NCBI GenBank assembly: GCA_016938135.1
Contig: JAFGVD010000012.1
Coordinates: 1 to 37,390 of the forward strand
From: Coriobacteriia bacterium
Lineage (GTDB): Bacteria; Actinomycetota; Coriobacteriia; Anaerosomatales; Anaerosomataceae
Length of the DNA stretch: 37,390 nucleotides
Reading direction: 5' to 3'
Under the pieces are notes generated by a model. The model had not been told where the DNA came from and searched no databases. It saw nothing but the letters and a program-made list of their open reading frames with translations. Below, piece after piece: positions 14,978-29,301 of this stretch (within the stretch, counting starts at the first letter, position 1; the number at the start of each line of letters is the position of its first letter). The position numbers and the translations under genes are program-made.

Positions 14978-15223
14978 ATGAACTACAGCGAGTGCATCAT
15001 CGAGCAGTATCGAGGAGACAAGCTGGTGCGCTCTTTCACGCCGACAGGGGATCAGAAGTTGCCGTGGAGCATGAACGTGAACGGCAAGAGCTACCTGAGG
15101 ACGAGTGGCTGGGTGCTGTCGAAGGTACTGCCGACCCTCGTTGAAGGTTCGCCGTTCACAACCAAGGTCATTCCGATTACGGAACAGGCCTCAAGAGACG
15201 ACTCCGAAAGTGGCGTCAAATAA
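14978..15223 (+). CDS. Small hypothetical protein, cassette gene
   Basis: An 81-residue hydrophilic protein ([70 protein letters not shown]) with alternating strand-like segments and no signal or membrane helix. I recognise no family. I chose ATG 14978, with AAGG at 14967-14970; in-frame ATGs at 14912 and 14954 would add up to 22 residues, partly from attC 19. Its TAA stop overlaps the left core of attC 20, an arrangement also seen for two other cassette genes. Confidence 0.5.
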
Positions 15224-15302
15224 GCGCATCCAGCAGACGCGATAGAGCGTTAGACTGAACGGCAGGGGATGGGCGCGCAGCTGACGCGCGAATACGTGAG
15301 AC
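15215..15302 (+). repeat. attC site 20 (degenerate)
   Basis: The interior AGCGCATCCAGCAG ... GCGTTAGACTGAA ... CGCAGCTGACGCG is well kept, but the cores have drifted to GTCAAAT (15215-15221) and GTGAGAC (15296-15302). Confidence 0.75.
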
Positions 15303-15354
15303 AGGGGACGGTGTCCGACCGGGTCGTTCGATGGAGCGAAGTAGGGGGCCGGCA

Positions 15355-16389
15355 ATGTTGTCAAGTGCCACACGCAAGGTCTGCTCGGTTCTGTTGTTGA
15401 CGCTGTTCGTATGGACACTGGGTGCCACCTCGGCATTCGCCATGCAGATCTTCGTCAGGACGCTTGACGGAACGAACATCACACTCGAGGTCGAAGCAAG
15501 TGACTCGATCGAGAACGTCAAGGCGAAGATCCAGGACAAAGAGGGCATCCCGCCTGAGGCTCAGCGCCTCATCTTTGCAGGCACAGAGCTAGAGGATGAC
15601 CACACGTTGTCCGACTACAATGTCCAGAAAGAGGCGACACTTCACCTCATCGTAGCCCCGCCTGTCACGCTCAGCGATTGCCCTGTGGAATGGCAGAATA
15701 GTGTGGTGACTCTGACGCTGAGCGTGGCGTCTTCTCCGGTCGACCCTGCCTTTATCTCTACGTTCTACTCGCTTCAAAGTGGCCCGTTTCAAGTCTACAC
15801 GGGGCCCTTTGCGGTGCCCGAGGACGGCATCACCACGCTCGCCTTCTACTCTGAGGCTTACGGCTCTACCGAGTTGACCCAGACAGCCGAAATCCGCATC
15901 GACCGTGCATCTCCGGTTGATCCCGACCTCAGTCCTTTGTCACATCAGCTCAACGTCGGCTCGATAGATCCCGTCGTTCGGGTGGGCTTGAGCGGTGCTT
16001 CTGATGCCCTGTCGGGGGTGCAGGGTTACTCCGTTTCTTGGTCCCAGGATTCGACAGCGTTGCCGGATGCCGTTGTTGATCTTGCTGCCACTGCCAGCGA
16101 GGTAGTGAGTGATGAGCTCGAACCTGGCATATGGTATCTGAACTTGCGCACCGTTGATGAAGCCGGTAACTGGACTTCAACTGCACATGCAGGCCCGTTC
16201 GTTATCGTGGCCGCGTCCGAGACGACCGCAACTCCAAATGGCGAGTCGCCAGAAACTGCAGGGGGCGAATTGCCAGCAACCGGCTCAAACGGCGTACTGC
16301 TCCTGGTCGTCGCGACTGGTTGCGCGGTTCTGGGCATAGCACTCAGGTTCCTCGCACGGCCTGACGAGCACGCTGGATCGGCACGCTGA
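15355..16389 (+). CDS. Secreted, LPXTG-anchored surface protein with an N-terminal ubiquitin domain
   Basis: A 344-residue protein. A Sec signal peptide (1-29) ends SAFA, placing the predicted cleavage directly before the ubiquitin Met. Residues 30-100 are a ubiquitin domain: 55 of the first 70 positions equal human ubiquitin by hand count. Leu8, Ile44 and His68 of the binding patch and Lys27, 29, 33 and 63 are kept; Lys6, 11 and 48 are replaced and the C-terminal LRLRGG is absent, so E1-type conjugation is not expected. Residues about 101-290 form two beta-sandwich modules ([31 protein letters not shown]). The end is LPATG (about 305-309), a membrane helix and a basic tail, a sortase signal. 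GGGGG at 15344-15348 supports ATG 15355. Flanked by degenerate attC 20 and 21. Confidence 0.93.
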
Positions 16390-16398
16390 GCTTGCCGT

Positions 16399-16485
16399 GG
16401 CTAGCCGGCGCATCGAGCAGACGCGATGGGCGATAGACTTGGCATTGAAGCATGGACGCGCTGCTGATGCGCACATACGTTACGG
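16399..16485 (+). repeat. attC site 21 (degenerate)
   Basis: GGCTAGC (16399-16405) and GTTACGG (16479-16485) replace the cores. The interior (GGCGCATCGAGCAG, GCGATAGACTTG, CTGCTGATGCGC) is clearly attC. Confidence 0.78.
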
Positions 16486-16561
16486 CGACGCCTGATTTCA
16501 CAGTACGAGGGTATATCTACTCCCGTATCGGGTGTGGGGCTACGCGTGAAATGGGGGCGCC

Positions 16562-28551: not shown

Positions 28552-28589
28552 TACCTGCGCTCGCTCGAGTCTGCGTTTCATGCGATTGG

Positions 28590-28648
28590 ATGGAAACTGC
28601 TTGACAGATGAGTTTCCATCATGGAAACTGCAAGGGTAATGAGTTTCC
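28590..28648 (+). promoter_or_regulatory. Tandem TetR operator sites
   Basis: Two head-to-tail palindromes: ATGGAAACT-12-AGTTTCCAT (28590-28619, perfect) and ATGGAAACT-12-AGTTTCC (28621-28648). They lie immediately upstream of the TetR gene, and a third copy precedes the next gene, indicating autoregulation and a small regulon. Confidence 0.8.
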
Positions 28649-28667
28649 TCTCGGAATGGGCCGACAT

Positions 28668-29207: not shown

Positions 29208-29252
29208 ACGACCCTCAACGGATGAGCGGAAGTCGCTCATTTATTGTGTCCC

Positions 29253-29280
29253 ATGGAAACTGACGGCAATATGAGTTTCC
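29253..29280 (+). promoter_or_regulatory. Third TetR operator copy
   Basis: ATGGAAACT-12-AGTTTCC, same half-sites and same 12-base spacing as the two copies at 28590-28648, placed 21 bases upstream of ATG 29302. Confidence 0.8.
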
Positions 29281-29301
29281 AGTCGATCGAAGGAGTGTCA
29301 C

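Follow-up and report, generated by a model that had tools for sequence, protein, structure and literature searches.

Ubiquitin is a hallmark protein of eukaryotes, and the papers found present that of Bacteroides fragilis as a lone case whose origin is unclear. The locus described here, in the genome of a Coriobacteriia bacterium, raises the question of why a bacterium would carry ubiquitin at the predicted mature N-terminus of a surface protein. Before the B. fragilis protein (BfUbb, gene ubb) was reported in 2011, no ubiquitin was known outside the eukaryotes (PMC3352274). BfUbb is a secreted, eukaryotic-like ubiquitin for which horizontal acquisition has been proposed (PMC3352274; PMC5705921), and these two papers confirm the statement of the preliminary description that secreted bacterial ubiquitin is known from this species. 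The 2017 report found its closest relatives among giant-virus ubiquitins and showed that it starts at Met1 after signal-peptide cleavage and mediates antibacterial, intraspecies antagonism (PMC5705921).

Gene structure, domain order and cassette setting

The window, meaning the whole stretch of DNA analysed, is 37,390 nucleotides long. Gene structure, domain order and cassette boundaries can be read directly from its sequence, and the features of the ubiquitin cassette are as follows.

15214-15303, forward strand: attC-like site of the preceding cassette, marking the upstream edge of the ubiquitin cassette (repeat families D1, D2, D5 and D12; sequence)
15355-15441, forward strand: signal peptide, predicted cleavage after AFA (sequence; start-codon comparison with the orthologue L001)
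15442-15654, forward strand: ubiquitin domain, residues 1-71, predicted mature N-terminus (PF00240; phmmer to PDB ubiquitins; AlphaFold2 model)
15655-15906, forward strand: first beta-sandwich stalk module, OmpL47-type (NF047446 below cut-off; predicted strands; homologues in large same-family proteins)
15907-16209, forward strand: second beta-sandwich stalk module (AlphaFold2 pLDDT mostly >90 from mature residue 181; family homologues)
16210-16284, forward strand: disordered linker ending in LPATG at 16270-16284 (sequence; low pLDDT; LPXTG models just below cut-off)
16285-16386, forward strand: membrane helix (16285-16353) and polar tail with Arg and His (AlphaFold2 helix at mature residues 282-304; sequence)
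16396-16487, forward strand: attC-like site belonging to the ubiquitin cassette, marking its downstream edge (repeat families D1, D4, D7 and D13)

A single forward frame (15355-16389, with a TGA stop at 16387-16389) encodes the signal peptide, ubiquitin, two beta-sandwich modules, LPATG, membrane helix and polar tail. The preliminary description had reported SAFA directly before ubiquitin, followed by beta-sandwich modules and LPATG; all of these were recovered, and the signal peptide and the LPXTG motif share one frame. Two start codons are available, ATG at 15355, with AGGGGG just 5' of it, and an ATG further upstream at 15331 (frame listed as 15331-16389). The former is the better candidate because AGGGGG precedes it and it aligns with the GTG start of L001, an orthologue in a second genome. 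From this start the precursor has 344 residues and the predicted mature protein 315. The predicted signal-peptidase site lies between SAFA and MQIF, with the ubiquitin Met1 codon (15442-15444) adjoining the end of the signal peptide without any linker; BfUbb likewise has Met1 exactly at the cleavage point.

The ubiquitin domain matches PF00240 far beyond chance (E = 2.3e-27; 95 bits, cut-off 25.4) and is identical to human ubiquitin at 55 of 71 positions (77%), close to an earlier hand count of 55 of 70. In an AlphaFold2 model of the mature protein (mean pLDDT 79.3), the ubiquitin beta-grasp fold is predicted with confidence, followed by a pair of beta-sandwich modules, a stretch of disordered linker and, after LPATG, a helix. 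The ubiquitin part superposes on solved ubiquitins (rmsd about 0.5-1 Å; TMt mostly 0.90-0.97 for single chains). At the level of sequence, descent of this domain from ubiquitin is supported. Leu8, Arg42, Ile44, Gly47, His68, Lys27, Lys29, Lys33 and Lys63 are kept, with isoleucine at Val70, and the alignment agrees with the early report that Leu8, Ile44 and His68 are retained. The losses in that report are also borne out: Lys6 is replaced by Arg, Lys11 and Lys48 by Thr, and RLRGG is gone, the chain continuing at that position into APPVTLSD with no RGG. Conjugation is accordingly not expected, since a conjugatable ubiquitin has a C-terminal LRLRGG with Gly76 free or processable, and the window protein has neither. 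A profile search for E2 enzymes (PF00179) gave no match in the window's genome, nor in the control genomes. Nor is this a small, released, ubiquitin-only protein, given its 315-residue mature form, LPATG motif and membrane helix; BfUbb is small, secreted and 63% identical to human ubiquitin, whereas the window protein is fused to a stalk and a wall anchor.

The first stalk module matches NF047446 (barrel_OmpL47) at 35 bits against a cut-off of 40, and the LPXTG models also fall just short (Gram_pos_anchor 13 against 20 bits; LPXTG_anchor 13.7 against 15.9). All features of a sortase anchor, namely the signal peptide, LPXTG, hydrophobic segment and polar tail, are present in sequence and AlphaFold2 model. 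The genome encodes two sortases above the PF04203 cut-off (E 1.7e-27 and 6.1e-25), both with the Cys and Arg motifs (LSACHP and LYTCVP), and the host should therefore have a Gram-positive-type wall. Together with the signal peptide and LPXTG, these sortases support the surface anchoring proposed at the outset, and secretion and wall attachment are predicted on this basis. The window protein is matched in 16 of the 27 genomes of its bacterial family. Two carry the ubiquitin form and the others only the stalk, mostly within long open frames. The OmpL47/Ig-like surface proteins of the family share stalk modules about 28-42% identical to those of the window protein, and differ from it in being mostly 600-1600-residue frames without ubiquitin.

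In the left half of the window, attC-like repeats form an array with a single orientation, and the ubiquitin gene is the sole gene between its two sites. At the upstream site the outer R boxes are degenerate (GTCAAAT ... GTGAGAC) and remain unpaired in the bottom-strand fold, which is no better than shuffled sequence (z -0.84); at the downstream site the R boxes are partly degenerate and the fold has z -2.21, with 2 of 200 shuffles as good. An integron integrase (TIGR02249, 477 bits against a cut-off of 265) is encoded at G000:C28:41156-42097, on a contig other than that of the window, with an attC-like match downstream of it. The flanking repeats and this integrase uphold the placement of the gene in an integron cassette array. 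As in integron gene cassettes, a single open frame lies between attC-like sites within a long array and IntI is present in the genome; the partly degenerate core boxes and an integrase known from another contig set the locus apart from typical ones. No promoter-like match was found for the ubiquitin gene, and cassettes distant from the integrase may be silent. An Rfam search of the window gave no match. One cassette lies between two 85-bp attC sites of identical sequence (586-670 and 1119-1203); unlike the decayed sites at the ubiquitin gene, these are consistent with recent capture or duplication there. Outside the array, three copies of GGAAACTG...TGAGTTTCC with inverted ends lie at 28589-28653 and 29252-29285, possibly operator or mobile-element sites.

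Bacterial context and distribution of secreted, anchored ubiquitins

The high identity to ubiquitin could point to eukaryotic contamination or an assembly chimera, a possibility raised in the preliminary description, and one other hit does look eukaryotic: a contig in a Nitrospinota bin carries four head-to-tail ubiquitins without a signal peptide (L050:2901-3797) that look like such contamination. However, a second, independently assembled genome contains L001, a full-length orthologue of the window protein (66% identity) with an attC-like site just upstream and an end resembling the start of an attC. Because of this orthologue, the attC-like sites on both sides of the gene and the stalk homologues throughout the same bacterial family, contamination or chimerism is extremely unlikely; the presence of signal peptide and LPXTG in one frame also speaks against it.

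In a scan of one genome per species, the best 80 of 191 relatives were kept, and the record titles name more than ten phyla; by title, many of the hits are from rumen or freshwater. Some short contigs among them are probably mis-binned, as with L009, which is titled a cyanobacterium and is nearly identical to L008 from a member of the Methylophilaceae. HMM surveys run independently of the window sequence found ubiquitin-family matches, within the window's phylum, in 3 of 396 genomes: its own and two with other or broken layouts. In the phylum of G402 there were matches in 2 of 398 (the seed and one weak hit), and in that of G399 in 5 of 398 (the seed, one strong and three weak). At family level, 9 of 248 genomes in the family of G399 and 8 of 247 in that of G398 were positive. 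Secreted, anchored ubiquitin is, on these sequence surveys, rare but scattered over many bacterial phyla, with carriers making up less than about 0.5% of the species in each phylum sampled and about 3% in two families. The preliminary description had treated the case as nearly unique beside B. fragilis, a view that gives way to this scatter. The open-licence papers searched yielded no description of an anchored ubiquitin or of the wider family. Genes of this kind have already been annotated automatically as 'ubiquitin family protein', and the secreted ubiquitin of B. fragilis was known; the anchored display and the wider family appear to be new.

The annotated genes (for example in Ruminococcus albus 7 on plasmid pRUMAL01, and in Saccharibacillus, Brevundimonas and Methylotenera) likewise combine a signal peptide with a linkerless ubiquitin, mostly followed by a surface-attachment region. 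They differ from the window protein in their anchors and spacers, mostly keep Lys48 and have a median identity to human ubiquitin of 89%. Among the HMM-found genes, with seeds and weak hits left out, Met1 directly follows the signal-peptidase site in 13 of 15, the exceptions being the internal ubiquitins L124 and L134. In the main set, found mainly by pattern, a signal-peptidase-type triplet stands next to Met1 in all 85 genes. Retrieval biases this count, since AFAMQIFV was among the search patterns and ranking went by the whole query. The regions after ubiquitin differ with the host and (n = 83) include autotransporter barrels (16), SLH domains (7), IPTL-CTERM (5-6) and T9SS tails (2); nine genes have none, one of these at a contig end. 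LPXTG-like anchors were recognised by motif in five loci, one being the window's own copy (L081).

Several loci merit separate mention. L030, from a Lentisphaerae MAG, and L035, from a Verrucomicrobia MAG, have almost identical signal peptides and tails that are related, yet their ubiquitins belong to different branches, which suggests ubiquitin domain swapping. In Pedobacter cryoconitis, four tandem, mutually diverged genes for a signal peptide and ubiquitin only (L067:8067-9394; 98-102 residues) resemble an expanded BfUbb-like set. The R. albus 7 gene (L135:5923-6663) lies on the 420-kb mobilizable plasmid pRUMAL01 in a row of hypothetical genes with a dockerin protein at its end. L091 and L093, in one genome of the window's phylum (G091), are adjacent ubiquitin-like frames, one apparently frameshifted after residue 57 and the other without a clear signal peptide; they may be a decaying gene.

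Ubiquitin ancestry stands from the earlier proposal of transfer from a eukaryote, but the local event need not have been a direct transfer of that kind, given how widely secreted and anchored ubiquitins are spread among bacterial phyla. A tree of 95 sequences over 71 columns, of the sort suggested for placing the donor, named none: 57 of 92 inner branches were open, branches were long, and the window protein and L001 did not fall together. A phage origin was rejected after a search of 50,697 phage records gave no match. Plasmid records gave two matches and IMG/VR four, three of them Brevundimonas-like sorting-tail genes and one a plain ubiquitin with RLRGG. L138, L139 and L140, IMG/VR contigs labelled viral on which a Brevundimonas-like gene joins signal peptide, ubiquitin and sorting tail, are either prophage-borne or mislabelled bacterial DNA.

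Selection on ubiquitin

In gene pairs with related anchor regions, pN was mostly 0.04-0.13 for ubiquitin and 0.25-0.5 for the tail, with pS mostly 0.6-0.95; this reading rests on the well-matched groups, some low-identity pairs being non-homologous in the tail and L071 being misaligned by one residue. L009 and L036, for example, are 97% identical in ubiquitin and 40% in the tail at a pS of 0.96. GC3 of the ubiquitin segment tracks that of its own tail (r = 0.855, n = 77). Because ubiquitin is strongly conserved even though its genes show saturated synonymous sites and diverged anchors, these ubiquitins are under selection and long resident rather than freshly acquired each time; a history in which eukaryotic domains were brought in anew and then adjusted completely is a less simple account. 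Conjugation is evidently not the point in most members, since Gly76 is kept in 9 of 91 and LRLRGG is exact in 4 of 91.

Among 89 distinct bacterial ubiquitins, mean identity to human ubiquitin was 0.94 at core positions, 0.859 at the Ile44 patch and 0.868 at other exposed positions, with positions divided into core and exposed according to the known fold. No single binding face stands out from these values, and 60% of random exposed sets match the conservation of the patch. Docking through the Ile44 patch was rejected as the selected feature, and the early idea that Leu8, Ile44 and His68 are kept for that purpose gains no specific support. Lysines are well kept (0.94), Lys27, 29, 33, 48 and 63 also in sequences lacking the search 8-mer.

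One explanation needs no specific partner: ubiquitin, a very stable and fast-folding domain, would have been put to new use on adhesin-like stalks, as a spacer or protective tip at the N-terminus. The great stability of ubiquitin and the loss of the conjugation tail fit this account, as does the window lineage, in which ubiquitin diverges about half as fast as the stalk, not far slower. Against it, the exposed residues Lys29, Lys33, Lys63, Asp58 and Thr66 are 97-100% kept in the wider family alongside saturated synonymous sites, beyond what fold stability should need, and yeast tolerates change over much of the ubiquitin surface (PMC4862753). On balance a purely structural cap is unlikely. Maintaining the fold should not by itself require the exposed residues that the family retains, and recognition by an outside partner is favoured over a cap for that reason.

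In the window's own lineage, constraint on ubiquitin, as far as substitution patterns tell, is weaker than in the wider family. The window protein and L001 are 76% identical in ubiquitin (pN 0.119) and 67% in the tail (pN 0.205), with pS about 0.58 in both, and the seven of the 89 that least resemble human ubiquitin include that of the window. This faster evolution, together with the decayed attC boxes and the lack of a promoter match, would fit a drifting passenger cassette with no present role. Such a cassette is highly improbable, however: both genomes keep the frame open, and pN/pS is about 0.2 in ubiquitin and 0.36 in the tail, which indicates continuing purifying selection.

A proposed displayed ligand and its rivals

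The explanation that we tentatively prefer, at somewhat below even confidence, is that the gene is a single-gene cassette for a sortase-anchored protein whose ubiquitin serves as a displayed ligand for non-covalent recognition and not for conjugation. After export, signal peptidase cleavage would free Met1 of a folded, non-conjugatable ubiquitin, which would form the tip of a two-module beta-sandwich stalk joined to the cell wall by sortase. The ubiquitin surface would then be bound non-covalently by an extracellular protein, most likely of a eukaryotic predator or host and possibly of another bacterium. Counting against this reading are the unexceptional conservation of the Ile44 patch, the weaker constraint in the window lineage and the missing promoter-like match. 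Eukaryotic ubiquitin receptors, moreover, are mostly cytosolic, which leaves their meeting with a wall protein unexplained.

A serious rival, because its relative BfUbb is antibacterial (PMC5705921), is an anchored ubiquitin that would bind and inhibit a protein of neighbouring bacteria on contact. BfUbb is the sole experimentally studied secreted bacterial ubiquitin and mediates intraspecies antagonism (PMC5705921), and ubiquitin-only relatives exist, as in the Pedobacter with four tandem copies. Most members of the family, however, are anchored rather than released, the present host has sortases and hence a Gram-positive-type wall, and the cassette includes no immunity or resistance gene. 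The target of BfUbb is reportedly a peptidyl-prolyl isomerase, and the protein is said to end in a cysteine-bearing tail, which the window protein lacks. We regard contact antagonism as distinctly unlikely.

Returning to recognition by an outside partner, it is possible, if rather doubtful, that many phyla adopted a surface ubiquitin ligand, repeatedly or by exchange among themselves, nearly always Met1-first after the signal peptide and on the host's own kind of anchor, and that its surface is selected by a partner such as a protist or animal factor. If true, the display of a selected ubiquitin on diverging anchors across phyla would mean that bacteria have an extracellular reason to show ubiquitin. 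The family also offers natural non-conjugatable ubiquitins for partner finding, and bacterial-eukaryotic or bacterial-bacterial recognition could be tested in culturable carriers.
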